NCBI RefSeq assembly: GCF_003073045.1
Contig: NC_037594.1
Span: 28,446,737-28,510,736 of the forward strand
From: Pomacea canaliculata
Taxonomy: Eukaryota > Mollusca > Gastropoda > Architaenioglossa > Ampullariidae
Length of the DNA: 64,000 nucleotides
Reading direction: 5' to 3'
Shown: positions 2,164 through 64,000 of the stretch, in pieces
How the letters are laid out: every line of letters starts with the position of its first letter
Position numbering within the stretch: position 1 is the stretch's first letter
The notes under the pieces: generated by a model
What the model saw: only the letters and a program-made list of their open reading frames with translations
Databases searched by the model: none
Told to the model about the DNA's origin: nothing
Translations under genes and position numbers: made by a program

Positions 2164-2477
2164 TCAGTTAGTCGGCGTGCATGCCCCGCAATCGCAGGCC
2201 TTAACCTCCAGGTAGCTATGCTTGATGCTGCTTCCGTCCTCGCAATGAAGGTGCACGTGGCGCCGCGTGGTGAGAGAGGGACGACAACAGCTGCATGCGT
2301 TGTTGCTGGCACCACACTGACCCTGACACTGCTGCAGGCCGTTGAGGGGCAGTGCGTTCCGACACATTACACCTTGCGGGCTGAGCACCTGGAGGTGGCC
2401 GATGCTGTCCTCGGGGGAATCGTAGATGGCGCGCGGACTGCAGGCGGAGCATTGGGAGGAGTTGGTCTTGAGAACGA
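2164..2477 (-). CDS. Exon 62: C-terminal cystine knot (CTCK) and stop
   Basis: The final exon encodes NSSQCSACSPRAIYDSP, then CQGQCGASNNACSCC, VHLHCEDGSS and KACDCGAC, ending in TGA at 2164-2166. The GxCG, C-x-CC and terminal C-x-C-x-x-C pattern is the mucin/VWF CTCK domain, which forms disulfide-linked dimers in the endoplasmic reticulum. Only about three residues follow the last cysteine, as usual for the family. Acceptor is TCCTCCCAG after a pyrimidine tract, and length fits phase. Confidence 0.86.
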
Positions 2478-5400
2478 CTGGGAGGAAGGAGATAAAGGTG
2501 GCTGATTATCATGAAAGTGACTTACATGCTAGTTAATTGCGTCCAAGCACTGTCCTAATAAATATTGTTTAAACAACATATACTACAAATTCTTCCATGT
2601 CGGTAGGCCACTAGATATCTAACATATCCGGACATTAACATCTAAAACTAGTTAACTTAAGATAAGGAAGAAAGAGAAAGCACGAAATGATGGAAGATAC
2701 AATTAAAGGGAACTTGAATGTTTACCTTTAGGAACACAAGTCAAACAACAGCCACTTCTGTCGTAACCATCAGCATCCTGCAAAATCAAGTCATTAACAT
2801 CAAAAATTACACGAAAATAAAGAAAGATAGAAATTATCTCGGTTCACTTTTCAGTGATGTGCGACTATATATGAACTGTATTCGTTAGCTTACACGTATT
2901 ATGCATGTGTATTAAGTATCTGGAATTAGCAGGTGAACGTGGCCATTGTCACGAACACGAGGAAAGTAATGTCATGACAAGCTGAGACTTACATCGTCAC
3001 ACAACGGCAGAGGTGTCGGGTCGAGGACACACACGTTGTGTCTCACGGACAAAGAAGCCGGAGTGGACAGGGTCGCGCTCGCAGGTCTTGGTGTAGCATC
3101 TGTCTGAAGATGGGATCCTCTCGCCCGTCTGGTTATATAGCAGATAGCAAAGACAATGAGAGCTGGGTATATTTCTACCTTTTACTTTTACTTTGTTAAA
3201 GATTAATTGTTAAAACGTCTCGTGTGTGCTGCCAGGAGTAAGGGGACTTGGCACTCACCGAGTAGACTGTTCCGTTGACCACGCAGCCTACGGCTTGACA
3301 CTGACCACAGCACTGACCTGGCACGTTGATGCGCTTCTCTCCCTAAGTCACAGACGAAAGACCAAACAGTAATCAAGCATTTGCATTGGATGAAGAGCTC
3401 GACAAAAAGAAAGAACGTAAATAATCGAAGAACTCGTTCATACTTAAAGAAAGGCCTCTTGGAGGTCATGTCTTTAAGAGAGAGAAAAGGAGGGGGTGAA
3501 AGAGTTTACAGATGTGGTTTCTTGCAGGTTACATGAATGCGGCTGAGTAACAGAAGCAATTAGTTAAAATGAAAGAGAAAACAGGACTGGAGGCTTACGA
3601 TCTTGCAGTCGGGACAACGTTGTTGCTGGCAGGACACGGACACCGAGCCATCACTCATCAGCATGCACAGACATGTCTTGCACGCGCCGTCTGTCCAGGC
3701 TTCGCCAGGCTGCAACGTCACGAGAACCGACAAGATGTCAGTCATCAAATTCTTATATTGATGAAATAAGCCTCTATCTGCGGGAAGGGTTTAAAGGCCT
3801 TTATTGAACATTGTTAATAAACCATGAACACTCTGTGTGTGTGTTTTTCCATGAACATGAATTATTTCTTAAGCCACTGTAAACCCATGCCTTTTTGTAG
3901 ATGAGTCATGGCAAATGGTGAAAAAGTCATTGTGAATCTAGTGATCCTGCAACTTGATCAGTGGGGTAGAGGTCAGTGAAAGACACGGTCCTCACCTGAT
4001 AGACGACCTCCATGGGTGTGGGGCTGCCATCATCCAGTCCGTTGCTGACCATGACGGTATGCAGGTATCGACACACCGGCTTAAAGGTGGTCACTGGACA
4101 CAGATATTCTTTATAAAAATGGAGCTAACAATAAAGCTAAGTAATTCGTCAGTGAGTCAGTCAGTCAGTCAGTCATGCTACGTCAGTCAGTCACTGGTGA
4201 CGACTAGTCAACGTCTCGATTTCTACCCCTTGCGTTACATTTCATTATTCAAGCCGTTTGTCGCGCTGTGTTCTATGCTTCTGGACCGTTCGTTATCATT
4301 AATCGTCGTTTAGCAGGCTGTTTGGATGTGTTGTCAGTAGAAGTAATGTTTCTCTTTGCGGTTCACATGACACTGCGTGTTTCTGTTCAAGATGGTGCAT
4401 GTGAAGACTAACACACTGGACCCTGACAATGTTACTGCATTATTCTGACCACTAATTGCATTAATATCGCCTGACGACTGTAGTCGCTCGTGGAGCCTAG
4501 TTATGACACCCTCTATGCGTTATACTCACTGCAGGCTTTCTGTGTACAGTTGCAGGCTTCAATGATTTCCACGATCTGAGATCCCTACAGAGAACAAATT
4601 AGTAAACGTTAGTGGTGTCAGTGGCAGACGTTTCAATCTCGCACTCCTCTAACTCTAGTTTAAAACGTAGCTGAGGGAGAGTTTTATTATCTAGTTCTAT
4701 GTGATTGTTCTATGGCTGGAACGACCATTTGGTCGAAATTTACCTGAGGACATGTTGGTTCCACGGTTTCTGGGCACTTCTTACTGCAATCTGGAACAAA
4801 CGTGCAATGATAAGCAAATAATATGCACCTGACACCTGAATAAATGCATCAAAGCGTATATTTCTAATGTGTTAGTATCCACTGTTTTTTTTATCCTAAG
4901 ATATTTTGCGTTGTAAGAGGTATTCACTCAAAATTCCGACTGTTACTAGTTTCATTGCGATCTTTGTGGACATTTCCTGTTTTAGGATAGTCATTATAAA
5001 GCCACTGGTTGAGGAAAGTCATGCGTATAGCCACTCCTACTGAGTAATCAGAAACTGATGCATGGAGTTCTCACCTGACGTGGGCGATGGTGTAACAAGA
5101 TTTTGCTGCACAGGATGAACGACAGGCTGGGCAGAGGGGCGTGCCGGTGGAGTAAAGACAGGCGTGAAACCTGCATGAAACGTGGAAACATTTGAAAGTG
5201 AGCTACAGACCCAGAGCGGGGAGTTTGGGTGAAATCAATCACGACAGGAGGTAGCAGCGGAAAGAATGCAAGAAAAAAGAACTTATCGACTATCCACGTG
5301 CTGAAAGTAATCTTTGTCAATGCAAAGTCGTTCAAACAGTTCGTGGCGCTCAAACAACTAAAACAATTGTGATACCGGGTACGTGAAAGCCAGGGGATAT

Positions 5401-8400
5401 ATCACGCAGGGAAGATGTTCGGGTGAACGCACTCACCACAGTCGATTTCGTCATCCACACAGTCCATGGCACCGTCACAGCGAGCGCTGCGTGCGATGCA
5501 CTGTCCGCTGCCGCACTGGAACTCGTCTGCTGCACACGTCGTGCAGGCGCAGGTGCACGTGTCGCGCTGCAGCGTGGAGACGCCCTGCAAATGTTTAAAA
5601 TGACATCTTATTTCTGTCGTGTTCGCGCGTGAAACAGCTTCGAATGCTCTCCATTTTTTGTCGACTGAACCCTTTCACGTCATCTACCAAAACAAGATAG
5701 AGATTCGATGAGAAATACAAATCTTTCAGTTGTAGACAAACAAGAGCTTTTATCTTTTATATTATTATTAAAATTACAAAAGTGAAAAGAGTTGAACATT
5801 AAATCAACGCTTGTCTATTAGTACTCCAGAACACTAGAAACAAATGATTAGCTAACATCATGGGAAAGAAATTATCGGGGGAACCAGCTTCAGAATAACT
5901 TGTCAGTAGCATGATGAAAGTAGGACAGAACAACTTGCGGTAACTTGAGACTTACATAAGAGCAGGGTGGGCAAGTCTTGGGAATGCAGCGCATCTGTCC
6001 GTTCAGACACTGGCATGTTTCGCAGGCGTTGTTGATTGTCACGTCTCGAGCCTGTCACCAATAACAAGGGAGTCAGACAAATGGCATTCGGACACGATGA
6101 GACACACATTGAGAGAAATTCCATCCACAGCACATAAGGTAGAAAGACATTACAATTACACCACATGAACGTAGAAACACGTTTCAGTCCCAGTACAAGG
6201 ACGTAGAATGTCACTTAAAGCACATCAGACTGACTAGACCTAGGGTAACAAGAAGCAAGGTCTGGAAGGACCAATACTCCTGCTTAATGTAAGCCACAAA
6301 GATACATGGTCAATACACACCCTAATGACTCTGTTGTCCACGACACACGGACACTCGCTGCGGGTGACGCACTTGATGCCGTCACAGTAGTGACCCACGG
6401 GACAGGAAGTTGGGCAAGAGGTCATGTCCAGACCGTTGTAGCAAGGTACCACGCTGGGCACCGGGTGAGCGTAGGGCTTGCGCTGTGGGCACAGCTGTTG
6501 GGGTGTTCGCCACTAAATAGAAAATATTTATTATTTTTTAGGTGAGGTTCTTTGATCAATCACTATCATTATGAAACTAACCATGATTTTCGCTTTTTTT
6601 ATGGAAAGTTCAAGTTGATGAACACAGAATCCAAGGTCTGTTTTAATCTGTCAAATCACAGAGAGCATCCCATACATAACTCTACAGAAAAATAAAAGCC
6701 TTCGTCGTTTTTCTTTACTGACTGGCGGCTGTTCTGCCAAGAGACTCTGTAATGTGTCATTTTGCCTGTTTAACACTTGTTGTCTGTAGAATGTGTGACA
6801 AACCTTTTTACTTACGAAGTTTTAACTAAAAGCAGACAATCACTTTTCACATATCACTTTGCCAAAGAATCTACGACATATACATCTTTTCTTGGAGGAT
6901 GTGTAATGTATCATTTATCAGAAGGCTGAACAAGAAATCAGTGTTAATCGCGGACGCATCCTAAGTCATCTCGGATGTATGGCAGGTCCCTGAGAAGATT
7001 TGTTGCAGCAGGCTCAAGATGCAACAATGCTGCTGCCACAGACCCACACACCAAATACTTACGGCACTTGGACGTCCTCCTCAGGCAGCCAAGACGAGCC
7101 TCATAGTTGAAGCAGGTGGCTTCAGAAACGTTGGCAGGTCTACAGACCAGGCCATCCCACAGGTTGCAGCGGACATGCTGGCCAGTCAGATCGGAGTCCG
7201 TCTTGTCCGGCGTGGCCGTGCGACACTGAATGGCCACAGGGTCGCGGCACGTCAGGGAAGCGGCTTGCAGCTGCTGCAAGGTGGACACGTCATTTCGTGA
7301 CAACAGGCTGGGCTGCTCCAAGTCCACCCAGACATCCCATTCCACGCAGTCATCTGCACAGTTAATGTAATCTTTTAACACTTAATTCTATGGAAAATAT
7401 ATCTCAAGCTCCTTGATAACGTTTGCATTTGTTATAAATATCTTACAAAATATGGGAGTAATGTATCCCTTTCAGTGCATGAGTTTTTTAATTGCTTTTT
7501 TGTCCACTGCAACAGGTTTATCCAATATTTCATAGGTCCCGATGCACAATAATTTTGAGGCTGACACTTTAATGTCTTCCGAAAGTTTTTGTTACAAGAG
7601 TGTATGCGCGCAATGATTGCCATATAATCTGGAGTTCTGAAATTTTCTCTTGCTGCTTCTTATCATATAGTACTTAGCAGATTCACTATTCTTGAGAATT
7701 ATTTTAGTTTCAAAATTAAAAGACGGCATAGGTAGCAACTATAGAATTGCGTGATTCAATACCTATCTCTTTGGGCAGTGGTGTTGCTCTAGGCTGCGCT
7801 GTTGGTGCTGCAGTGGGAATAACACCTGCAAGAATTACACATAAGTATATAGTAATTTTAATATGGAGATTTGCTTTATTTGCTATAACCATTTCCCGAG
7901 TGACGTTGTGTAGACTTTGGCACAGTACCTCTTGCATTTATGATCAACTATTAAAGTTACGCAAACACTTCGTTTGCAACCCACATATGTGTGTGTGTGT
8001 GCACGCGTTTACATACAAGGAAAAGTCAACTGGTGGGGAAAACATTAAATGTTCATGCAAAGAGGGAACGGACAGTGCTTGAAGTCATGATTCCATCCGG
8101 GGACTTATATGGATTGTATGATAGGAGTCAGCAGTTCCAATACAAATATTCATGCATCTTTTGCACTGTCTTCCTAAACACCAGCACAAGCAATTGGCAT
8201 CTTGAGACAACGGCCGTCTACAGCTGGGCACCTCGCTGCGGAATCGCTTCTCACCTGTAGGGTAGGCTTCGAAACAGCCCTGCAGCTCAAAACGCAGCGT
8301 GATGCGGCCTTGCCAGGTGACAGGGTGGATCCTCACGTAACGCGCTCTGATCGGTTGATGGAACATGTTGCGCACAGGAGTGACTGAGTCGCTGTTACCT

Positions 8401-53400: not shown

Positions 53401-53573
53401 GACAGTTAACACTTTAACAATGAAACATTAATCGGAATCTTAAAACAAAAAAATCAGAAAAATCTGCATCGCTGTTTAAGCCGCAGGGGGAAAAAGTCTT
53501 GGTTTATAGTCCGAAATTGAAGATACATATGAGGAAAAGAAGAAAGCGAAAAGAACACAAGATGAAAGTGTCT

Positions 53574-53650
<77 letters not shown>

Positions 53651-56600: not shown

Positions 56601-59600
56601 TCTGTGTTTTAATTTATTATAAAACCACTAAATATCATCATATTCCTTCAAACGTTTTGACTGAAGAAGCACTGACCATCCCTCTTTATAGAATTTTAAA
56701 CCAGGTTGGCGCAGAACAGCTTTTTTATTTGACGCAATTATATTTTAGTGAATTATTTTCTTCACATCACTGCTGTCAAAATATTTCCTAACGTTTTCAC
56801 CTGATTCTTATAAAATTTTGTAGATTTGTGATTTTCATTTTATTTATTTTTTTTTTTATAAAATAGAACCTTAGTCAGACCTCTACCGGTAAAGGAAAAT
56901 GGTTTTTCACAGCAATGAAATTTGTCTATTAATTGTGTAGTTTTACATTTTTCGAATGTATCAGTCAGTTTGAGATAGTTCATTGCATTACAGAAAGCGA
57001 AGAACATATTTGCAAAATATGGTAGGGATGTCATTATTACTGAATAGACGCGATCATGATCATAAACCATTTATGTAGTGTAATTTATGTCGTATTAACC
57101 CCACCTCACTAAAATATAAATTACATCAAAAGAGCTGTCCTGCAGCAACCTAAATTAAGGGAACTATCATTAGTTTGTCAGCTGTAGATGTTGGCCTATA
57201 CATCTCTTTTCCTTCTCGTATGCACCATATTGATTGTAATCTTTGTATATTGTTCTGAACGAAACAAGTAAACTTTTCTAAATCGTGCTGCTCAAGTGTT
57301 TATGCCTCTCGATATTGCTTACCCATTTGGGTTACGACGACCACAGGTACCGTAGTTTCTTGACTGATGACGGGAGTAGTTCTTGTATACGGCTCCGAAT
57401 GACCAACTGAATGTGGAGTTGGGCCTGTGTACCACGGAGGGTAAGGAGATGGTGTTTCTCCGCTATATACGGGTGGGAATCCGGGAGTTGGTGTTTCATC
57501 AGAGTGTTCATCAGGATGTGCTGTCGGAGTCTGGCCTGTGAACCATAATGGATAAGGCGAAGGGGTCTCTCCAGTGTAACTGGGTGGGAAGAGAGTGGAT
57601 GATGTGCATGCATCAACGCAGTGGAACCTCACTTGATAGTCGAAGCATTTAACGCCGTTTGGCTGTTCGCTGTCCAAGCAGACGAGGCCATGGTTCAAGT
57701 CACACGTTACACCTACTTGTTTAGCTACGTCGAATGGGATACCATTCGGGTTGGCTGAGGTTGGTGACACGCGACACTGGATTGCCACCGGGTGCTCACA
57801 GAAAGGATAGGTCAGGCGCAAGTTAGCAATGGTCTCGTAGTCACCGCGTGAAACGGGAGTGCGAATGTCCGAGTTCATCCAAACTGTCCATTGACAGGAC
57901 GGCACTGGACTCCAGGGCTGACCAGGTATCGGCGTTATATTCGGTTGAGCTGACGGTTGGGCTGTTGGGACGCCTGTAATCATCACCATCACCGAAGATT
58001 TAAAATAAACACCCTGGCGATAGAAACGCTTCACGAAAAAAAAATGTTTTTAACGAGCCTCCAGATCACATCCTTCCATCTCATCCTCAAGCAAAGGACC
58101 CCACACACGCCACCTACCTTGGCCGCAGTCGCACTCAACGCTGATTTCGTAATCGTCGCATAGACCGCTGGTGGCGGCGCTGTCGAGGCAGATGAGACCG
58201 GTGGGCAACTCGCAGATGACAGTGTCCTGATTGCGGTGGTACGGCTGCTGCGTCAGTGTGCTGCGACAGCGGATGGCGCGAGGCTGTTCGCAGAAGCTGT
58301 AGTACTGGCGCAGCTCCCACAACAGTTCGTAGTCGCCTGGGCCCTGGCTTTCCGAGCTGCGCATGTCAGTCGGCGAGTCAATGTTCATCCAGGCCGACCA
58401 TCCTTGCGTGCACGTGTAGGGCAGAGTAGGCGCTGGTGTCGGAGGTGACTGAGTTATTGTAGGCGTGGTCGTAGTTTCTGAAGAAAGAGTTCGGGTGAAC
58501 AAAATTATACCTATGTGCTGATTATGAGGTTTCATTCTCTCATTAATGTATGCAGTGAGTGAAAGAACGGGAGAAAGATACTCACATTTCATAAAACACT
58601 GAGGAGATGGAGGACACCCATCGGCATGGCGGGAAATCCCAACAAAGGACTCACTACCCATGCGTTATAGGCTGAGACGTTTAACTTACAACAATATCAA
58701 GAAAGTTTATTTTTATATCTAGAAACCAAGAACCTAAGCTATGGAAAGTCGAATTCCGAACAAAAATCTAAAATATTGGGACACGAAGTGTAGAGGTGAA
58801 CTCCAAGTGCCGAGCAAGCTTTTGCAGCCTGAGCAGCAGGCTTAATTTAATTCTAAGAATAATTACTGAAATAGGAGATTACGATTTATTTCCTCACAGA
58901 TATAACATCCTTCCTAAAGTTTGAAAACACGGCGTGTCCTATTGCAACCTACATCCTACTTTCCAACAAATAAAAGTGACAGGCCATTTTATTCATTTCA
59001 ACAAGTAAGCAATAAGTATAACACATGTAAAAAAAACATACAACTGATAGTATAAATGTACTGCTGCATGTGGGAAGACTGCGTAATGAACAGAGAGAGT
59101 AAATCAAACTAATTCGCAAGAGTCAGCGTCCTTTACCTTGTGAGCAGTCACAGTATACTCTCATCTCGAAGTCAGGACACTTCGCGCCCTGAGGCTGGTT
59201 AAAGCACGCTAACCCAGCTTTGGTATTGCACACCATCTGAAGGTCTTCGGTCTGGGTGAGAGGTTGCATGTCTCCCACCCGCCTGCACTCCACCTGGGTA
59301 GTATATTCTTCCGGACAGATGTCCTCCTTCTTCCTGATGTCGGGCAAGGACTCGATGTCGCCCTGGCTGTCCAGGCTGTGCGTGTTAAACCACTGGGTCC
59401 AGCCAGTCTTCTTGCAGGTCAGGGTGACTGAACCCGTAACCGTGCTTGAAGACACTCCCGGGGTGGTGGGAGAGGAGCTGCCGGGTACTCCGCCTGTCTT
59501 ATCTGGGGTTGCGCCACTGAAGGCGGGTGTGACTCCAGGACTGACTGTTGGTGCGATACTCGAGGTACCAACAGTGACAAGTTCGCCTGTAAAGTAGAAA

Positions 59601-62600
59601 ACACCTAATTTGAAGCCATGATTATCGTGTTTTACATGACAATTATTACGCATAAATTATCACTAAATTATCAGTAATTTCAGATTATTTCTTTTCATCA
59701 TTGAACATTGACTATTGTACATAAATCATTAATTACTCTGAATGTATAAAGATTAATTTTATAACTGCATAATTATAAACTTTTGTATATGAATTAATCA
59801 TGTACTGCATGGCAGGTGTGACTAATTACGCTTTCAGTGCTGGTCTAAAGAGCTAAGATCCCACATTCGGCAGCGTTAGACTTTGATATCTTCAGACTTA
59901 CAGTTGCAGTAGAAGCGCACTTCATAATCCTTGCACATCTGGTTCTGGGCCTGGTTGCTATGATAGCACGTGAAGCCACTCTGCAGGTTGCACGCGGTCA
60001 CCTGGCCCGAGTACACGGAGGACGTGGGCTCACCCACAACGCGGCACTCGATGGCCTCCATGGCCTCCTCCTGGCAGAAGGCGTAGCGCTGGCGCAGCGT
60101 CGCCATATTTTCGATGTCACCCTTGCTGGCGGAGGTCGGGGCGGAGGCCGACATCCATGACGTCCACCCTTGGTAGCACACTGGCGTTATCTGCGTGCCA
60201 GTAGGCGTCGGTGAGGGGGTGGTGCCACTGGACAGTCCTGGAGCCAGGGTGGGAGCGGCGGTGGGCTTGGCGGTCGGAACCAGAGTCTGGCAGAAGCCAA
60301 AGCTGATGTGTTCGAGAACGCCTCGGCGACAATTGCTGCACAGACGATGAAATCAGATGTTACTAGACTTCGTCTTAGCCTGCATGTTTCCATTGCACAT
60401 GTCCAAAAAAGACTGCAGAATTCCTATCGTGGACAATACTTGCACATGATTTGGCCAATTGTCGTGACCATATATGGACAAATAGATAAGGAGAAGTTGC
60501 AAGATGGACATCTCTTTTTTTGAGTTGGGAAGGAAAAATTTTTGGGTGCATATTGATAAATAAAAATTAAAAAGAAATCCTTCATCGTGGGTATTTTCAG
60601 GCTCTAAGAAGGAACTGATAGAATTCACTTCATGAGCAGAGAAGCGACAATACGTGGCAAAGTGTTGAGACGTTAAACCTCCGAAGTGGACGGCTCGGCA
60701 TGTTGCTTAAAGTTCTAATGTCATGAACGTTCGCCCCAAAACCGTTTGTTTCTTGTGACCTTTACACCACAGATTTGCCTAACATTTTCTCGGTTACGAA
60801 ATGTCTTTTCCGAGATAACAGTAAACAGGAAAGGTTATGCATGTCTCATTGCTATTCTGTAAAAGTACGTCCTTACCAGATCTCGCATGCATGGTTGCAT
60901 ACAGTGTCGTCGTAGATTCGCTCGCCCTCGCGGTAGACTCTGCCGTTGATGGTGCAGGAAGGAGTCTCGCACAGAGGTTCCGGAATGCACGTGACTGGAG
61001 GCTTTAGGCTAGCGTAGACCTGTCCAGGTGGGCAAGGCTCGAGGTCACAGCCTTCGAAACACAAGCCGTTGGCGTTCTGACACTCATTCATCAGTTGGTC
61101 GTACACAAGCAGGTTGTCGCAGGTTTTCTTCGGACAGGCGCTCATACAAGGATTGTAGATCTCACAATCATCGCATTGGATCGCTGTAACAATCATTAAA
61201 ATCGTGGAAATTAGGAACAGTAGTTATTATAGAACTGTTAGAATAAGTTGTTCAAATAATCAGATTGAATTAGTTATTAGAACTGGATGATCTACCAACT
61301 AGAACTGCTCATTATTTATTCTAATTAGTGAAAAAATTATCTTAATTGTTAGAATAAATTCATAAAATCATTAAGATTATTGTATGTAGTAGTCAGATTT
61401 TATAAAGACAATAGAATCAGTGATTAGAAGTTATTGGAAGTTTGTAAACTGTTCTTGGCTGCTCTGTATGGCATTGCTTTGTAGAGCTAGGCATACATTG
61501 GGTAAGACAGCATTCCTTTGGCTTTAAGGAATCAATTGCATCAATATGATGGAAAGACGTTGGGGTGTATTAAGAAAAATGTCACTGTCCTCATCCCTTG
61601 TATCTATCTAAGACGTTTCCCATGTTACTTACGACACAGTTCGTTGCTTCTCCAGTTGATGGCATGCCCTTTGCTGGCGCAAACGTGTGCGTAGGCAGCG
61701 ATGGCCGTGCAGAGACATTCACAGTCGCCGCCCATGTCGCAGCCACACGTGTCGTAGATACAGTGGTCCAGGTACTTTTGGTAAGGCTCCACCAGGTGAC
61801 AGGCACTGAAGATGGCGGACTTGATGATGCCGCACTTCTCCTGCGCCCACGGTTTGCGCTGTGGCTCGCTCTCGCACGTGTCTGTCACGTCGGTGGAGGG
61901 CGTGCAGTAGCTGTGCAACTTCCAACTGTCGCCAAAGGCAGTGGATCTTACGACGGCGGGCCCGCCTTGAGGGGTGGTGAAGTCGTCTTTTTGGTCGCCG
62001 TTGAAGTTGCCGCACAGACCCTCCACCTAATTATGAAAAAACACATACGTTGCATACCTTGCATACGTTTTCAGCCAATCATGTGCCGTCGAAAATAAAG
62101 CACACCTAAACGCCTTATCATCATTTCTTTTACTCATTAAAGCAATGATAAATATCTTCCACCCCACTACTACCTAGTCTTGATCTTTATTATCATTGCT
62201 TTTAGCTTATACTTCTAGTCGCTGACTTTATTGAACCTTCATACTTGTTACAGCTCAGTGCCATTACCCTTACGGCACGAAATGAAAAAGAACTGACCCT
62301 TCCCTGTGCTCCGTGCTGAGTCTGACGTAGACACGCGTGCCTTTATCCCATTGGATGCTTAGGCCGAAAGGCGTGTCGATGTAGACGAAGTCCCCCACCT
62401 CTCGTGCCGTGAAAGGTGAGCCGGGATCTGGCTTGACCGACTGACCGCGAATCAGCTGCAACCTGTAGAAGGTGGGCGTGCCCGACTCGCCCACCGTGAT
62501 CTCAGACTCTTGGAGCACGTGACCCCACTCGTTCCGCAAGCCACGTTCTCGGTGGTGACCTGGAAGGGAGTGGCACTTCCGTCCCTGGAGCGCACCAGCA

Positions 62601-64000
62601 CGTAGTCACAGCTGCCCTGGAACTGGTACTCACGCCCGTCGAACGTCGTGTAGTGGGACTCACCGAGGGCGCTGCAAACCGCCGGGCAGTCGTTGATCTC
62701 ACAGGCCCACTTTCTTCTCCGGCACTTGCTGCAGGCAGATTGTTTTTTGTCACCGTGCTGCTTTGATAGCGAAATGATCCTTATATCTCTGTCCCCTTAT
62801 TTTTTTCATGGTTTTTGTGACAGGTAAAAGTAAAAGTTACAAAAGGTAAAATGTTCCATGGCTCAGAGGCGGTAGGGGTCAGTAAATGGTAAGTGATTGA
62901 CCATGGAAAAACTTCAGTGATTAAATCTGGTGCCACTTTGCTGAAAATCTGCTGGGTGGGCAAGGAGTTTTCTAGGTATAGGCTAGAGAAAGCCTCAAAC
63001 CAGTAACTTTTTGCTAAATCTTAGAGCACTCATCACTTGAGTATGAATCCTCCCAAATAACCCTTAACTGGCTTCTTACTTTAAGGACAAGCACTGAAAG
63101 CGATGTTTACGGTACTAGGTGACAATTAAACAGCAGTGATTAAGATATCAGAAGGCTATTGTCTGCTTTAGTGTGTAGCCTTGTATCAAGTGGAGATATG
63201 GAACTCTTCAGTGTCTCGCTTTTAATTGTATGGTAAATACAACTCACTCTCCATCCCATTTGTAAACAAGTATGCATTTTAAGTGATACATACGGGGGAA
63301 AAGGTACAAAGTATCGCGAACTCATTTTAAGTGATCTTTCCAGACATGAACCAAAACTGACAAAGACAGACGCAAAGGTTTCTTCATAGAAACTCACCAT
63401 TGGTTACAGTCCATTGATATGATGTCACCTTCGTGGTAGGCCTTGCCACCATAGTAACACGGGCACATGGAGGTTTCGATGCACTGCTCGCCTTCCAACA
63501 CAAAACCTTCTACACACTGGCAGCCGGACTTGCAGTTGGTCTCATCGCAGGCGGCGCTCTCTTCATCCAAGCTTTTACAGGTCTTGGGGCAGTTGGATAT
63601 GCACTCGCTGTACACGGTGTTGTTTGGGCACAGCGGCTCGATGTGTGTTGGAATTTTCTCAATTGTCAGAGGAGAACAAGTCCACTGAGCTTTCGTGCAT
63701 ACGCTAATAGAAATAGCAACAACAATAATAATATTAAGAAGAATTCGTAGTAGTATATATTACATAAATAGGTTCTTCTAGTTGCAAGTAGTGCCGTACA
63801 AGTCAAAACTAGAAGCCTCCCCCGTAACTGTTCCAACCAACGACTCAGGGTGTTAACTGAGACATCTCTTCTTACAATCCTAAGAAAAGAATGATGATGA
63901 CTGCGATGAAGAAGACAACGACAAAAAATAATAAGAGGAAATTCCTCAGCTCCTCTCACCAGATGTCTCTGCCTTTGAGAGTGGTATAACCTGGCGGATA
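2164..64000 (-). CDS. Giant gel-forming mucin-like protein with D3, WxxW, F5/8C and CTCK domains (3' part, about 62 exons)
   Basis: This is a secreted, multimerising mucin / VWF-family glycoprotein; its 5' end lies beyond the window. The exons form one chain: nearly all have GT-AG borders and matching phases, and module borders are usually phase 1. The order D'D3, WxxW, mucin repeats, VWC and terminal cystine knot follows gel-forming mucins such as MUC2 and MUC5, while F5/8C domains recall insect hemolectin. Inside the cell such proteins dimerise through CTCK and multimerise through D3; outside they form a hydrated gel. I count 29 WxxW and 10 F5/8C domains. About a dozen exons have lengths off by one base from the expected phase, which I read mainly as assembly errors. 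No promoter is in the window. The chain could in principle be two neighbouring genes, but no internal start, signal peptide or stop with poly(A) signal was seen. Confidence 0.85.
2726..3709 (-). CDS. Exons 58-61: von Willebrand type C modules
   Basis: Exon 58 (3599-3709) encodes GEAWTDGACKTCLC and CQQQRCPDC; exon 59 (3259-3342) encodes PGQCCGQCQAVGCVVNGTVY; exon 60 (2993-3128) encodes GERIPSSDRCYTKTC and NVCVLDPTPLPLC; exon 61 (2726-2777) encodes DRSGCCLTCVP. The CxxC ... CCxxC spacing is that of VWC. Exon 60 is 136 nt where 135 is expected: one extra base near 3045, between ERDPVHSG and VRHNVC. VWC modules lie next to the cystine knot in VWF, MUC2 and hemolectin. Confidence 0.76.
3996..5170 (-). 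CDS. Exons 54-57: linker and small Cys-containing exons
   Basis: Exons are 5075-5170 (TPVFTPPARPSAQPVVHPV, Pro-rich linker), 4744-4790 (CSKKCPETVEPTCPQ), 4530-4584 (IIEACNCTQKAC) and 3996-4093 (FKPVCRYLHTVMVS ... PMEVVYQ). All four have GT-AG borders and lengths that fit phase. The small exons resemble the segment between D4 and the VWC modules of VWF and mucins, but I cannot name a domain with confidence. Confidence 0.65.
5437..6512 (-). CDS. Exons 51-53: TIL, VWC-like and LDLa modules
   Basis: Exon 51 (6321-6512) has linker TPTAVPTAQA, then CYNGLDMTSCPTSCPVGHYC and CVTRSECPCVV (TIL-like). Its length is one base over the expected value, with the frame change between the linker and VPSVVPCYNG, near 6465-6480. 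Exon 52 (5956-6051) encodes CETCQCLNGQMRC, a VWC strand. Exon 53 (5437-5584) encodes CTCACTTC, then an LDL-receptor class A domain, FQCGSGQCIARSARC and CDGAMDCVDDEIDC, with the acidic residues that bind calcium. TIL-VWC-LDLa clusters occur in SCO-spondin and hemolectin relatives. Confidence 0.76.
7063..7353 (-). CDS. Exon 50: WxxW domain 29
   Basis: The exon encodes CVEWDVWVDLEQPSLLS, VSTLQQLQAASLTC, VAIQCRTA, GLVCRPA and CFNYEARLGC. It is 291 nt, phase 1-1, and open throughout. This is the most C-terminal and one of the most diverged WxxW domains; the usual GDGD turn is replaced by LLSRND. Confidence 0.74.
7763..7825 (-). CDS. Exon 49: 21-residue Pro/Thr linker
   Basis: A 63-nt symmetric phase-1 exon encoding VIPTAAPTAQPRATPLP with acceptor TTGCAG and donor GTATTG. 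It carries the PTAQP word seen in other linkers of the gene. Confidence 0.6.
   Translation of the reverse strand: MLFPLQHQQRSLEQHHCPKR
8255..9047 (-). CDS. Exons 47-48: C-terminal F5/8C domain j
   Basis: Exon 47 (8740-9047) encodes ECVVDMGMTNGNIRDDMIS, then SSWMPSRDDLDQFIQVDL, FVTGVTTQGRFDAPSYVTS and VTFSTDGVNWNVY. Exon 48 (8255-8408) encodes NSDSVTPVRNMFHQPI, ARYVRIHPVTW and ITLRFELQGC. The intron position differs from the other nine F5/8C copies, which split after the SWxP motif, so this is an older, independent copy. Both exons fit phase. Exon 47 is notably rich in CpG. Confidence 0.8.
9502..9921 (-). CDS. Exon 46: WxxW domain 28 with Pro/Thr tail
   Basis: The exon encodes PNPINDEEPTITPEL, then CGWTDWMSGNKPSARGEEE, VECRAVGSG, YNGYVCRNDD, CTDYEVRFLC, and a tail IPSVVPPTRAAITVSPPS. 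It is 420 nt, phase 1-1, and intact. The domain is strongly diverged from the neighbouring array, so it marks the outer edge of the recent expansion. Confidence 0.8.
10616..19296 (-). CDS. Exons 35-45: eleven tandem WxxW exons (domains 17-27)
   Basis: Exons: 18979-19296, 18201-18578, 17456-17833, 16678-17054, 15901-16278, 15121-15498, 13651-14028, 12689-13045, 11934-12290, 11142-11501, 10616-10966. Each encodes one linker (for example PTSQAHSQPTPAATVTT or PTPGPLATTAAP) plus one WxxW domain with GWSAWFNNDSPDTGDGDVE, VDCRTT, IEYFSSGE, CNNADNDP and YEIRYECSC. All are multiples of three and symmetric phase 1-1 except 16678-17054 (377 nt), which lacks one base near 16761. Three linker families are seen: PTSQAHSQPTP (13651-18578), KETQGVPTPGPL (11142-13045), and unique ones in the two outer exons. 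Domains are nearly identical, so the array is recent. Confidence 0.88.
11142..13045 (-). repeat. Second family of exon-plus-intron repeats
   Basis: The introns 11502-11933 and 12291-12688 share long stretches (words such as AAGCTACAGGGGTTTTAAGC and ATGTGCTTGATGATGTT). The flanking exons share linker KETQGVPTPGP. Unit step is about 755-790 bp. This is a separate amplification from the type X/Y introns. Confidence 0.75.
14206..14891. mobile_element. Non-autonomous DNA transposon with TTAA target duplication
   Basis: The 686-bp insert begins AGGGATTGTAAAGGC and ends with the near-inverse GCCTTTAGCATCCCT (13 of 15 positions pair). TTAA flanks it at 14202-14205 and 14892-14895. It splits an intron that is otherwise of type X and explains why this intron is about 700 bp longer than its relatives. 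No coding frame is visible. TTAA duplication with AGGG ends fits Kolobok- or piggyBac-type MITEs. Confidence 0.68.
14551..14636. promoter_or_regulatory. Cluster of CRE/ATF-type palindromes inside the MITE
   Basis: TGACGTCA occurs at 14551-14558, 14595-14602 and 14612-14619, and TGATGTCA at 14629-14636, the last three as part of a short repeat of about 17 bp ending in AAGGAGACT. The perfect octamer is the CREB/ATF site. Any regulatory role is inference; the sites came in with the transposon. Confidence 0.3.
19693..21208 (-). CDS. Exons 33-34: TIL, VWC-like segment and WxxW domain 16
   Basis: Exon 33 (20967-21208) encodes a TIL-type cysteine-rich segment: CTDGEGWDNCAYLCDELC, CDDSVSRTCVPGC, CVPQEMCPC. 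Exon 34 (19693-20104) starts in phase 0 with PFETWKNPADSCSDCSCH, completing an E/VWC-like strand. It then has linker TPSATPTAQPGVSP and WxxW domain CGWSAWMNVDKPS ... CSDYEIRVYCPC. The acceptor of exon 34 follows a long T tract (the A run at 20107-20127 on the plus strand). Both exons fit phase. Confidence 0.75.
21770..21835 (-). CDS. Exon 32: 22-residue linker
   Basis: A 66-nt symmetric phase-1 exon encoding SKPTLIPHQTDIPSLPD, a Pro-rich linker without cysteine. It is supported by acceptor TTATAG, donor GTGAGA and phase continuity with exons 31 and 33. Confidence 0.6.
22032..22387 (-). CDS. Exon 31: WxxW domain 15
   Basis: The exon encodes VTTPGSYISPTF, then CNWSPWLNADKPSS, GDLEKIELLK, CRVAS, and in a second frame CDPLNGLRCYNSEQ and CHDYEIRVLC. 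Length 356 nt is one short of the phase-1-1 value. The frame changes near 22158, between IELLKQTYG...CRVAS and NATCDPLNG. Borders are TTGCAG and GTGTGC. Confidence 0.74.
22763..25809 (-). CDS. Exon 30: eight WxxW domains in one exon
   Basis: The exon is 3047 nt. Its 5' end has linker SSPTGETPTPNPATC, followed by six nearly identical WxxW units (GWTTWINTPS, VEVDCQT, IEYFSSGEVVTC, LICNNVDNEPVPC, YKIRYRCEC). Each unit is joined by the same linker, which contains PSASPPSISGQT and PTAQTGGTPTPAPG. Two more diverged domains follow: GWSAWINRDKPTTGDGD near 23410 and FWTPWINRDTPSTGDGE near 23010. The frame is broken by a lost base near 24055 and a gained base near 24150, which offset each other, and a lost base near 23240. 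These account exactly for the net one-base shortfall against phase. Confidence 0.82.
23490..25790 (-). repeat. 399-bp coding tandem repeat (WxxW plus linker)
   Basis: Six copies with a constant 399-bp (133-codon) step, for example landmarks at 23589, 24387, 24786, 25185 and 25584. Copies differ at only a handful of positions, such as GTT/GTC and TGCC/TGCA variants, including in the glycosylated linker and at third codon positions. Such likeness means recent amplification or ongoing gene conversion. Confidence 0.88.
25810..26217 (-). other. Intron between exons 29 and 30
   Basis: 408 bp of AT-rich sequence separating the exon with WxxW domains 5-6 from the eight-domain exon. No repeat or gene seen. 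Confidence 0.6.
26218..27554 (-). CDS. Exons 28-29: F5/8C domain a and WxxW domains 5-6
   Basis: Exon 28 (27404-27554) encodes CNVPMGLSNPLVIS ... SGWRPR. Exon 29 (26218-27229) completes the domain (QWIEVDFLTSYAIGG, ARYIRIRPTEY, LRFNIFGC). It continues without an intron into a Thr/Pro linker (TPTAQPSISP) and two WxxW domains: CRYWTSWVNSNKPS ... CFDYEIRVLC and CAAGWSPWYNRNKN ... CEDFMIRYMCDC. Length is 1012 nt where 1013 is expected; one base appears lost in a C-rich run near 26897, between GCESPSATP and the linker. Confidence 0.8.
27777..28632 (-). CDS. Exons 26-27: F5/8C domain b
   Basis: Exon 26 (28482-28632) encodes CLVPMGLESSYIVT ... GGSWIPK; exon 27 (27777-28177) encodes TPWIQVDLRSLKLISGV, QGSPDTDRWTTS, ARYVRLYPISS and LRFDLLGCRPD, then linker GFTPTASPSAEPG. 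Both lengths fit phase and the frame is open throughout, making this the cleanest reference for repairing comparison with domain f. It ends with a phase-1 donor GTAACA. Confidence 0.82.
28814..30122 (-). CDS. Exons 23-25: F5/8C domain c and Pro/Thr linker
   Basis: Exons are 29974-30122, 29374-29652 and 28814-28968. They encode CFTKMGLENFQIIT, HPWIQVNFEELKQVSG, AQYIRIVPVD and FNVVGCNPS, then linkers PTAVPPNVSGQT and TPTTVNPSF. Exon 23 is 149 nt where the paralogue has 148: an extra T (plus strand) near 30073 breaks the frame after ITDK. The other two exons fit phase exactly and match paralogue lengths (279 nt for the middle exon). Confidence 0.8.
30724..31565 (-). CDS. Exons 21-22: F5/8C domain d
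   Basis: Exon 21 (31424-31565, 142 nt) encodes YICNVPMTITNAQ ... EHGAWVP and fits phase. Exon 22 (30724-31111) encodes QWLQVDLLRPMAVSG, LIQGSPVDDRWTTS, ARFWRIVPVSWAPAG and LRFNLLGCEEQ. Exon 22 is one base short (388 against 389). Comparison with domain h places the loss near 30795, after GCEEQ, leaving the last 25 or so linker codons out of frame. The intron before exon 21 is only 148 bp and links it to the giant exon. Confidence 0.78.
31714..50168 (-). CDS. Exon 20: giant single exon, F5/8C end plus mucin tandem repeat
   Basis: The exon opens at acceptor TTCCAG (50168) with an F5/8C segment and ends at 31714 before a weak donor GTTATT, after ...YTGPTPTAHL. In between lies a Cys-free repeat of 95 residues. 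In the clean part (about 32.5-35.3 kb) the frame stays open for many hundreds of residues. By hand count of one unit, Pro, Thr and Ser make up 29, 17 and 8 of 95 residues, as expected for a densely O-glycosylated mucin domain, and 13 residues are aromatic, which is unusual. Nominal length is about 18.4 kb, or some 6,000 residues, but the 100-N gap and noisy sequence above 35.3 kb make the true length unknown. No splice sites interrupt the clean units. Confidence 0.75.
31720..49830 (-). repeat. 285-bp mucin tandem array with a 12-residue inner repeat
   Basis: The period is 285 bp (95 codons), clear from about 32.5 to 35.3 kb. Each unit has eight sub-units of about 12 residues on the pattern P-T-P-Y-P-P-x-Y/W-T-G-E/P-T; examples are PTPYPPGWTGET, PSAHPPGVSGES and TTAFPPWYTGPT. 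One sub-unit is shorter (10) and one longer (13), so 95 rather than 96 codons. At the 3' edge (31.7-32.5 kb) units are diverged or indel-bearing. By length the array would hold roughly 60 units, an unreliable number given the gap and errors. From about 35.3 kb upward nearly every line of sequence carries small indels. Confidence 0.85.
40262..40361. other. Assembly gap of 100 N
   Basis: A run of exactly 100 N lies inside the mucin array; 100 is a conventional placeholder, so the true size is unknown. The 179 bases before the gap (40083-40261) are identical, errors included, to 39183-39361, which points to a collapsed or overlapping contig end. Confidence 0.97.
49830..50543 (-). CDS. Exon 19 and the start of exon 20: F5/8C domain e
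   Basis: Exon 19 (50393-50543) encodes CDVPMGLSNPLVIS ... SGWRPR. The rest of the domain opens exon 20 at 50168 (QWIEVDFLTSYAIGG, SPYWVTRYELYYS, RYIRIRP-like) and ends at GCESPT near 49850. There the frame runs straight into the mucin repeat with no intron. Several indels lie between 49880 and 50010 when compared with domain a at 26930-27229. The domain is otherwise nearly the same as a. Confidence 0.75.
50719..51487 (-). CDS. Exons 17-18: F5/8C domain f
   Basis: Exon 17 (51337-51487) encodes CLVPMGLESTYIVT ... GGSWIPK and fits phase. Exon 18 (50719-51116) encodes TPWIQVDLRSLKLISGV, then LGYGLRFDLLGCRPD. Against its clean paralogue at 27777-28177, exon 18 has several one- or two-base losses between about 50750 and 51050. 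Its total length is 398 nt against 401. The local breaks are of the kind found in unpolished long reads and are denser here because the exon lies near the noisy mucin region. Confidence 0.75.
51665..52976 (-). CDS. Exons 14-16: F5/8C domain g and Pro/Thr linker
   Basis: Exons are 52829-52976 (CFTKMGLENYQIIT ... SWIPA), 52207-52485 (HPWIQVNFLELKQVSG, QGRPTGQFHVQHS, AQYIRIVPVD) and 51665-51822 (FNVLGCNPS, then linker PTATPATVSGQT). This F5/8C copy is split over three exons where most are split over two: an extra phase-2 intron lies just before the terminal FNVLGC strand. All three lengths fit phase. The paralogous domain c has the same extra intron, so that intron predates the block duplication. 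Confidence 0.8.
53171..53522. mobile_element. Possible hAT-like MITE in an intron
   Basis: The 352-bp segment starts CCGTAAATTTCGG and ends with the near-inverse CCGAAATTGAAG. It is flanked by ATACATA on both sides (53164-53170 and 53523-53529), with an eighth base mismatched. Inside, the word ATAAGCCG or TAAGCCGC recurs in the two ends. Eight-base duplication suggests hAT, but the family is a guess and no coding frame remains. Confidence 0.42.
53575..53651. repeat. (CAGA)n microsatellite
   Basis: About 19 tetranucleotide copies with a single phase slip near 53610. It lies just beyond the possible MITE, in the intron between exons 13 and 14. Confidence 0.9.
53923..54690 (-). CDS. Exons 12-13: F5/8C domain h
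   Basis: Exon 12 (54549-54690) encodes YICNIPMTITNAQ ... ERGAWVPS, and exon 13 (53923-54310) encodes EWLQVDLLRPLAVSG, LIQGSPVEDRWTTS and ARFWRIVPVSW. Exon 13 is 388 nt where 389 is expected. Comparison with the paralogue at 30724-31111 places the missing base near 54040, just after the VPVSW motif. The last residues form a Thr/Pro linker (TARPTLEPR in the shifted frame). It pairs with domain d in the downstream block. Confidence 0.78.
54839..56355 (-). CDS. Exons 10-11: F5/8C domain and short mucin array
   Basis: Exon 10 (56223-56355) encodes the first third of a discoidin F5/8C domain (CEDSLGVRSPSVIT ... SAWMPR). Exon 11 (54839-55618) carries the rest (QWIQVDLAKPEFITG, QGHPTMPYWVTK, ARFVRIYPTEW, LRLDLLGC). 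F5/8C domains bind lipid or glycan surfaces through loop tips; the ligand here is unknown. Exon 11 then runs into about five 24-residue units, PTPYPPWYTGET followed by PSPYPPGVSGNT, 72 bp each. Units near 55060 and 55220 have small indels against their neighbours, and the exon length (780) does not fit phase, so the frame is broken in the array, probably by sequencing error. Confidence 0.78.
55619..57322 (-). other. Introns around exon 10
   Basis: 55619-56222 and 56356-57322, the latter being the longest clean intron of the 5' half and strongly AT-rich between 56460 and 57290. No coding segment is convincing; short GT-rich tracts lie near 56190 and 56430. Confidence 0.55.
57323..57973 (-). 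CDS. Exon 9: WxxW domain 4 with a short Pro/Thr/Ser mucin tail
   Basis: The exon opens with a VPTAQPSAQP linker, then CQWTVWMNSDIRTP, GDYETI, CRVSP, GLVCLDS and CFDYQVRFHC. After the domain come several 12-residue units such as PSPYPPWYTGPT and FPPVYSGET. They share the P-P-x-Y-x-G-x-T register of the giant array in exon 20 but are diverged from one another. Length 651 nt, phase 1-1, no frame break. This may preserve an older form of the mucin repeat. Confidence 0.78.
58118..58477 (-). CDS. Exon 8: Thr/Pro linker and WxxW domain 3
   Basis: The linker ETTTTPTITQSPPTPAP leads to CTQGWSAWMNIDSP, GDYELLWELR, CRSTL, GLICLDS and CDDYEISVECDC. The exon is 360 nt and phase 1-1 with clean splice borders (TTTCTTCAG, GTAGGT). 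The linker is almost pure Thr and Pro and so is likely O-glycosylated. The W-S-A-W core matches that of the 11-exon array downstream although the rest is diverged. Confidence 0.8.
59137..59586 (-). CDS. Exon 7: Thr/Pro linker and WxxW domain 2
   Basis: The linker (TVSPGVTPAFSGATP ...) is about 60 residues and rich in Pro, Ser, Thr and Gly. The WxxW domain has CKKTGWTQWFNTHS, GDIESLPD, VECRRVGD, GLACFNQ and CPDFEMRVYCDC. The exon is 450 nt, symmetric phase 1-1, with acceptor TTTACAG and donor GTAAAG. Sequence is diverged from the other WxxW copies, so this is an old module rather than part of a recent array. Confidence 0.8.
59902..60335 (-). CDS. Exon 6: end of D3 plus WxxW domain 1
   Basis: The first residues (CNCRRGVLEH...GFC) finish the D3 E-like strand. 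A Pro/Thr linker (KPTAAPTLAPG) leads into a WxxW domain: CYQGWTSWMSASAP, GDIENM, CRVVG, GFTCY, CKDYEVRFYCNC. WxxW (PF13330, the CysD domain of MUC2, MUC5AC and CILP) holds a W-x-x-W site for C-mannosylation and conserved cysteines, and in mucins it affects non-covalent cross-linking. D3 followed directly by CysD is the same order as in vertebrate MUC2/MUC5. Length 434 nt fits phase 1-1 with no frame break. Confidence 0.8.
60877..62728 (-). CDS. Exons 3-5: D3-type VWD-C8-TIL assembly
   Basis: Exons are 62298-62728, 61633-62026 and 60877-61183. VWD begins CPAVCSALGESHYTTFDG and reaches VEGLCGNFNGDQKDDF in exon 4. C8 follows with DTCGCDMGGDCECLC and AAYAHVCASKG...INWRS, very like D3 of VWF and MUC2. 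Exon 5 holds CPKKTC and a TIL domain ending CIPEPLC, then an E strand. D3 is where VWF and mucins form intermolecular disulfides, so this region probably builds multimers. The GDPH self-cleavage motif is absent (GESH instead). Exon 3 has two apparent one-base losses: one near 62515, just after CSKS, and one at its donor, where phase is off by one. Exons 4 and 5 fit phase. Confidence 0.82.
63398..64000 (-). CDS. Exons 1-2: end of an E module, then TIL' and E' (D' region)
   Basis: Exon 63960-64000 runs off the window and ends in ...GRDIC; exon 63398-63703 continues with VCTKAQWTC. Then comes a TIL domain with dense cysteines (CPNNTVYSECISNCPKTC ... SGCQC ... CIETSMCPC), and an E'-like strand YYGGKAYHEGD. 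This matches the D' segment before D3 in VWF and gel-forming mucins. The high-side border of exon 2 has a pyrimidine-rich tract before AG, and the donor GTGAGT follows. Both exons fit phase (306 nt, start 1 and end 2). The D1-D2 propeptide-like region should lie just beyond base 64000. Confidence 0.8.

Follow-up and report, generated by a model that had tools for sequence, protein, structure and literature searches.

The gel-forming mucins MUC2, MUC5AC, and MUC5B carry two, nine, and seven CysD domains, respectively, and Oikosin1 of the tunicate Oikopleura, which belongs to a secreted mucus house, carries 13 (PMC6861317). A delivered protein with twelve such domains (12-CYS, or poly-CYS) was described to stiffen mucus and to lower its mesh size (PMC6861317). 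Proteins with VWD, C8, and TIL domains recur in invertebrate adhesives, including Sfp1, Mlig-ap1/ap2, and several limpet pedal-mucus proteins (PMC7037938, PMC8621496, PMC7333891). Sea-star Sfp1 is a cohesive protein of the temporary adhesive; it contains VWD, C8, and four F5/8C (discoidin) domains together with C-type lectin and EGF domains, and is cleaved into four subunits (PMC7037938). The flatworm protein Mlig-ap2 has 14,794 residues, with N-terminal TIL, VWD, C8, and LDL domains, a long repetitive core, and TSP1 at the C-terminus (PMC8621496). VWD, C8, TIL, and LDLa are likewise described for SCO-spondin, hemolectin, and limpet P-vulgata_3, and SCO-spondin also has a CTCK and TSP1 repeats (PMC7333891). 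Limpet P-vulgata_11 (“Mucin x2”, oikosin-like, 201 aa; PMC7333891) may be a published mollusc CysD fragment.

A 64,000-base stretch of DNA (the window) was analyzed for a candidate gene on its minus strand, whose N-terminal side lies near 64000 and whose stop codon is at 2166-2164. The window probably holds the greater part of a single gene encoding a giant secreted mucus glycoprotein rich in cysteine which, by the mechanism proposed below, would form cohesive or sticky mucus. Roughly 12,000 residues lie inside the window (a rough sum of exon readings in which the array length is uncertain) and the N-terminus is missing; D1-D2 and the signal peptide would fall beyond base 64000, outside the window. 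From the N-terminal side, the order begins with a D3-type assembly, four CysD, one F5/8C with a short repeat, four F5/8C, and a long Pro-Thr repeat exon. These are followed by four further F5/8C, 24 CysD with one TIL/VWC-like insert, one F5/8C, one CysD, and then TIL-like, LDLa, VWC, and CTCK domains (Table 1). The initial annotation had described such a D3-to-CTCK architecture with 29 WxxW and 10 F5/8C domains, starting at coordinate 2164, which is now accounted for by the stop codon. Domain counts, order, and strand were borne out by Pfam and PDB profile matches, all on the minus strand: PF13330 matched all 29 WxxW loci (one piece per locus, E≤0.001, best 8.7e-22), and PF00754 matched 11 of 11 pieces of the ten F5/8C loci.

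Table 1. Features of the candidate gene, listed from the N-terminal side; “below cut-off” means below Pfam's own cut-off for that family.
Feature	Position	Strand	Basis and remarks
TIL-E exon before VWD (D' by position)	63398..63703	-	PF01826 E 5.4e-11
E' and first part of VWD	62298..62671	-	VWD E 6.2e-16; frame appears to change inside exon (by eye)
End of VWD and C8 of D3	61633..62026	-	C8 E 3.8e-20, VWD E 9e-6
TIL-E of D3	60877..61183	-	PF01826 E 1.3e-4, below cut-off
WxxW 1-3, one per exon	58118..60335	-	Profile search and Pfam
WxxW 4, then in frame GETPSPYPPWYTG-type repeats	57323..57973	-	Profile, PF13330
F5/8C 1, two exons	55300..56355	-	PF00754 E 1e-22; spliced reading
Short array, same repeat type as long array, after F5/8C 1	54830..55270	-	Tandem-repeat and sequence reading
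F5/8C A, B, C, D (copies 2-5), two exons each	49850..54732	-	Profile, PF00754; A, C, D with small indels relative to sister copies
Long proline-threonine array continuing from F5/8C D exon	31714..49850	-	Unit 285 bp = 95 aa; N gap 40262-40361
F5/8C A', B', C', D' (copies 6-9), two exons each	26920..31565	-	Profile, PF00754, spliced reading
WxxW 5-6, single exon	26218..26882	-	Profile, PF13330
WxxW 7-14, eight CysD in one stretch read without introns	22763..25809	-	Profile; copies 11 and 13 split over two frames
WxxW 15, split over two frames	22032..22387	-	Profile
Internal TIL exon	20967..21208	-	PF01826 E 1.3e-4, below cut-off
E/VWC-like cysteine-rich stretch and WxxW 16	19693..20104	-	PF13330 E 4.2e-19; cysteine-rich stretch by eye
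WxxW 17-28, twelve CysD, one per exon	9593..19252	-	Profile, PF13330; 16.95 kb copy split over two frames
F5/8C 10, two exons	8255..9047	-	PF00754 E 3.2e-18 and 9.9e-9; spliced reading
WxxW 29	7085..7351	-	Profile, PF13330
TIL-like cysteine-rich exon	6321..6512	-	By eye; no Pfam match
LDL receptor class A domain (LDLa) exon	5437..5584	-	PF00057 E 3.4e-9
VWC-type, three short exons	3003..3777	-	First PF00093 E 5.1e-4, below cut-off; second by eye; third no Pfam match
C-terminal cystine knot (CTCK) exon and stop	2164..2477	-	PF00007 E 6.1e-4, below cut-off

For the D'D3 assembly proposed at the outset, TIL, VWD, C8, and TIL were found by Pfam, and the C8 is mucin-like. The VWD is spread over two exons, which match profile positions 1-63 and 136-155, respectively; its middle, read by eye in another frame, had no Pfam match. 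As a single stretch the C8 exon scored 111 bits to a MUC5AC chain and 109 to MUC2, and 96 and 95 to the second and third repeats of VWF. Within the long MUC5AC and MUC2 chains the best-scoring stretch was the last one, and the MUC5AC and MUC2 chains that match the exon best are taken here to be D3 constructs. D' is less sure and rests on position: the TIL exon at 63.7 kb scored 49 bits to the first VWF TIL versus 37 to the TIL before D3 (labels by chain position). An EGF_3 match (E 0.032) lying under the TIL was below cut-off and was dropped as chance. At the opposite end, the claimed cystine knot is confirmed by the VWF CTCK in the PDB (9qrv, E 4.2e-5; 4nt5, E 7.8e-5), with the Pfam match below cut-off. 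The upstream boundary of this exon is uncertain (2466 or 2477), and an AATAAA is found at 1996, ~170 bases past the stop.

Searching with a profile built from the window copies gave 33 CysD matches in the 29 loci, all on the minus strand, and 4 of the 29 loci were split over two frames. Inside the profile bounds 21 of the 29 copies have eight cysteines and four have seven, the remaining four being pieces of split copies. The profile also matched MUC5B, MUC5AC, and MUC2 chains in the PDB (best E 2.6e-18), and the CysD (WxxW) feature of gel-forming mucins is present in the gene. An AlphaFold model of copy 1 (pLDDT 80.5) was compared with solved structures, and six mucin chains were matched at TM 0.66-0.78 (query length), five of them at E≤0.001; on this model copy 1 is predicted to have the CysD fold. 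Two modes of CysD expansion are found in one gene, with eight copies in one stretch read without introns versus mostly one per exon elsewhere. The stretch of eight contains a 399-bp tandem unit (5.6 copies, 98% match) with 12-residue Pro/Ser/Thr linkers. Mid-gene, the CysD series is broken by the internal TIL exon and the E/VWC-like stretch, as if the tail of a D assembly had been left behind or inserted. One CysD copy had no relative in prokaryote genome contigs or viral contigs, a result with no bearing on novelty among animals.

Fourteen profile matches to F5/8C were found, 13 of them in the ten loci; the match at 42.3 kb was weak (E 0.35) and was dropped as chance. In each of copies 1-9 a short upstream exon carries the first part of the domain, and a phase-2 GT-AG junction joins the two exons (9/9). 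F5/8C 10 has its GT-AG intron elsewhere in the domain and in phase 0, and this difference in place and phase from the other nine suggests a separate origin within the gene. Spliced readings were clean from opening to closing cysteine in half of the copies (1, A', C', D', and 10). C and D are scrambled mid-domain and A near its end, all by indels; the readings of B and B' stay open, with the closing cysteine not seen. Blocks A-D (49850-54732) and A'-D' (26900-31570) are direct duplicates flanking the long array, and some stretches outside their F5/8C exons align too. The paired second exons differ by 27/322, 19/279, 12/303, and 46/308 substitutions (4-15%), and because these differences are unequal, haplotype duplication was ruled out as the source of the blocks. 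An AGAC microsatellite of 19.5 copies lies between F5/8C exons at 53575-53651. Factor V/VIII, neuropilin, lactadherin, and retinoschisin are among the best 60 of 67 PDB matches for F5/8C. These proteins bind lipid or protein partners. In the sea-urchin protein Nectin, F5/8C-type domains are described to bind galactose and N-acetylglucosamine (PMC7037938). As with CysD, a single F5/8C copy had no relative in viral contigs, which has no bearing on novelty among animals.

The 95-residue repeat unit contains 29 Pro, 17 Thr, 12 Gly, 8 Tyr, 8 Ser, 4 Trp, and 1 Phe (Pro 31%, Ser+Thr 26%, Tyr+Trp+Phe 14%), and by eye it is made of eight sub-units of ~12 residues of the type GETPTPYPPWYT. The threshold for PTS repeats quoted for Lang et al. 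is Ser+Thr at least 20% and Pro at least 5% (PMC2515642); the unit exceeds both, with 25/95 and 29/95 residues, in an array that is for the most part unreadable. At 57.6-57.3 kb CysD 4 continues in frame into repeats of this type, which fixes their reading frame. The 12-residue pattern recurs, minus the aromatic residues, in the linkers that separate CysD 7-12 (GESPSASPPSIS, GQTPSISPTAQT), suggesting such a linker as the starting point of the array. By extent the array, spanning 31.8-49.6 kb, corresponds to ~62 units. A clean core of ~3 kb (about 32.4-35.4 kb) is 97% identical to the unit, still with 37 indel events and with frame changes inside. From 35.5 to 40.25 kb identity is 82% with 101 indel events per kb (353/480 single-base), and from 40.4 to 49.6 kb it is 80% with 126 per kb (960/1160 single-base); inserted or deleted columns make up 15% of this noisy array (about 35.5-49.6 kb). 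True divergence was ruled out as the cause of the 80-82% identity, given that both noisy zones have three to five times as many inserted or deleted columns as substitutions and that only 70 of 1640 indel events there are multiples of three. The pattern looks like that of uncorrected long reads, which appear to affect the adjacent F5/8C C as well. A gap of 100 N lies at 40262-40361, with the same repeat unit on both sides. Owing to the indel load and this gap, the copy number, length, and frame of the array are not established. The giant mucin repeats first claimed are thus real as repeat DNA, whereas beyond the clean core they are noisy, gapped, and not readable as one open frame. Over 35500-51500 as a whole, sequence quality falls sharply, with indels resembling raw reads, the N gap, and broken F5/8C exons adjoining, and annotation pipelines would probably split the gene there.

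All recognisable domains are on one strand. Minus-strand ORFs of at least 60 aa outside the array (n=140) matched 18 Pfam families at E≤0.01, and ten of these fit the architecture (CysD, F5/8C twice, TIL, VWD, C8, LDLa, VWC, Cys_knot, and DAN). The other eight look like chance and were dropped (BsuBI_PstI_RE_N, CBM_3, Ntox50, PHO4, NHL, Gemini_C4, NTS_TR130, and OMP_b-brl_2), as was a match to Nmad4. None of the 77 plus-strand ORFs of at least 75 aa outside the array had a Pfam match at E≤0.01. The sole NCBIfam match among the 140 minus-strand ORFs (2.4e-5) was taken as chance, and no Rfam match reached the gathering score. When ten short pieces were searched separately, Pfam gave no match for eight: the second-frame part of VWD, two short C-terminal ORFs, and all five F5/8C first exons tried (0/5). 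Exon phases were then considered. For the 22 WxxW rows, the best donor chosen without a phase constraint was in phase 1 in 20 (one donor being common to two rows), and for the nine first F5/8C exons it was in phase 2 in eight. Over all exons, phase 1 was found for 25/50 best donors and 25/53 best acceptors, the latter showing a mild bias. In a phase-constrained exon chain 3 of 52 junctions clash and two more are untestable; the chain was selected for its fit and is therefore weak evidence. The long repeat follows F5/8C D, and at the end of the array a phase-1 donor at 31714 fits the next acceptor, in phase 1 at 31565.

Based on the exon phases and on the lack of any other recognisable gene in the window, a single transcript across the domains is favoured. 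It is unlikely that what is read here as one gene is really two or more adjacent ones, or a chimera that assembly created at the N gap. That view draws on the gap and noisy sequence in the middle of the gene, on the blocks of four F5/8C on each side of the array, and on an exon chain built with a fitted model; the same unit continues across the gap, however, the unequal second-exon differences argue against two haplotypes, and among the scanned ORFs the CTCK was matched once and no further gene turned up. Several exons have frame changes, which could also be taken as signs of a decaying pseudogene. They were found in 4 of 29 CysD, in 3 of 10 F5/8C (A, C, and D), and, by eye, in the VWD exon, and those in CysD (16.9-24.2 kb) are away from the noisy array. 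Among ten intact CysD copies (17-19 and 21-27), mean dN was 0.032 and mean dS 0.240 over 45 pairs; the values for F5/8C A/A' were 0.045 and 0.191, and those for B/B' 0.036 and 0.204. Such low dN relative to dS suggests that the copies compared have been under purifying selection. With low dN/dS between copies, and with noisy zones (including F5/8C C beside the array) that have the excess of indel columns and the scarcity of multiples of three (70/1640) of uncorrected reads, decay is very improbable and the frame changes are likelier to be assembly errors.

Read as one gene, the product is best described as a secreted mucus protein, cohesive or adhesive and linked by disulfides, that combines parts of gel-forming mucins with parts of the hemolectin/SCO-spondin type and has a function that we infer from its modules. 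In mucins and VWF, D3 and CTCK are the ends at which chains are linked. Chains of the window protein would accordingly be expected, from sequence, to dimerise through the C-terminal knot and to be joined through D3. The Pro-Thr repeat, presumably O-glycosylated, would hold water and act as a spacer, and the 29 CysD could stiffen the gel through numerous weak, reversible cross-links. F5/8C domains might attach to glycans or lipids, either on the substrate or on other constituents of the mucus. The outcome would be a cohesive, sticky mucus that might serve in feeding, coat eggs, or cover the foot or body, its use as an adhesive being a guess. Of all parts, the Tyr/Trp repeat is the one least like a mucin; that it adds weak contacts is conjecture.

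Other functions can be built from the same modules. There is a considerable, if less than even, chance that the protein is an ordinary protective or lubricating invertebrate mucin with no special adhesive role, its F5/8C domains serving only to anchor it, whether on other glycoproteins of the mucus or on its own epithelium. Its modules are those of protective mucins, the sequence itself nowhere says glue, and the unit passes the Lang et al. threshold with 26% Ser+Thr and 31% Pro (PMC2515642). Against a protective mucin, none is known to us with ten F5/8C domains and a Tyr/Trp-rich repeat. The window also contains F5/8C, VWD, C8, TIL, LDLa, and CTCK, the domain set of the hemolectin/SCO-spondin type, their placement in one protein being assumed. 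With VWC (below cut-off), these are the family parts of a hemolectin/hemocytin-like clotting or immune protein, which would have acquired CysD and act in haemolymph; this is improbable, because so many CysD (29) and so extended a Pro-Thr array are features of mucus and because the C8 exon scores best to gel-forming mucins. Beyond the preferred reading of a cohesive mucus protein, it is possible, though doubtful, that the gene represents a separate class of gel-forming mucin. In this class a large CysD array, tandem discoidin domains, and a 12-residue Pro-Thr repeat bearing Tyr and Trp would give one molecule three routes to cohesion and make it a natural adhesive hydrogel, with Tyr and Trp at regular spacing where the repeats of ordinary mucins are non-aromatic.

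The gene resembles MUC2, MUC5AC, and MUC5B in having a putative D3 assembly, CysD, a Pro-Ser/Thr-rich repeat, VWC, and a C-terminal cystine knot. To our knowledge, these three mucins have no F5/8C or LDLa and their repeats are without Tyr and Trp; we likewise know of no D3, F5/8C, or CTCK in Oikosin1, and of no CysD array or Pro-Thr array in SCO-spondin, hemolectin, or P-vulgata_3. F5/8C domains do occur in proteins of the SCO-spondin/hemolectin type. No earlier case is known to us of CysD and F5/8C combined in such numbers with a Tyr/Trp-bearing Pro-Thr repeat. Among the open-access literature matches listed and their passages, no protein with both CysD and F5/8C was named. The 29 CysD compare with two, nine, and seven in MUC2, MUC5AC, and MUC5B, and many CysD in a secreted mucus structure is a likeness to Oikosin1 (PMC6861317). 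VWD, C8, TIL, and LDLa, found in the window, also occur in SCO-spondin, hemolectin, and P-vulgata_3, and CTCK in SCO-spondin (PMC7333891). Mlig-ap2 is similarly giant, with TIL/VWD/C8/LDL domains and a long repetitive core, but it differs in its C-terminal TSP1 and in that no F5/8C or CysD is mentioned in the description drawn on here (PMC8621496). Sfp1 has VWD, C8, and F5/8C in common with the window but differs in its C-type lectin and EGF domains and in that no CysD is listed for it in the account cited (PMC7037938). C-type lectin, EGF, and TSP1 families were absent, at E≤0.01, from the 140 minus-strand (at least 60 aa) and 77 plus-strand (at least 75 aa) ORFs outside the array within the window.

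The contrast first drawn between vertebrate mucins with few CysD and no F5/8C and hemolectin with F5/8C was slightly too sharp, since nine (MUC5AC) and 13 (Oikosin1) CysD have been published (PMC6861317) and VWD and F5/8C are described together in Sfp1 (PMC7037938). The locus also serves as a warning that repeat arrays of such genes can be badly assembled and hence missed in annotation. If it is one transcript, the gene connects two groups usually treated apart: the gel-forming mucins, with CysD and PTS, and the VWD/discoidin proteins found in the glues and clots of invertebrates. Its product would then also be a poly-CysD protein occurring in nature, with over double the CysD number of Oikosin1 (13; PMC6861317), in which the idea that this number sets gel stiffness could be tested.
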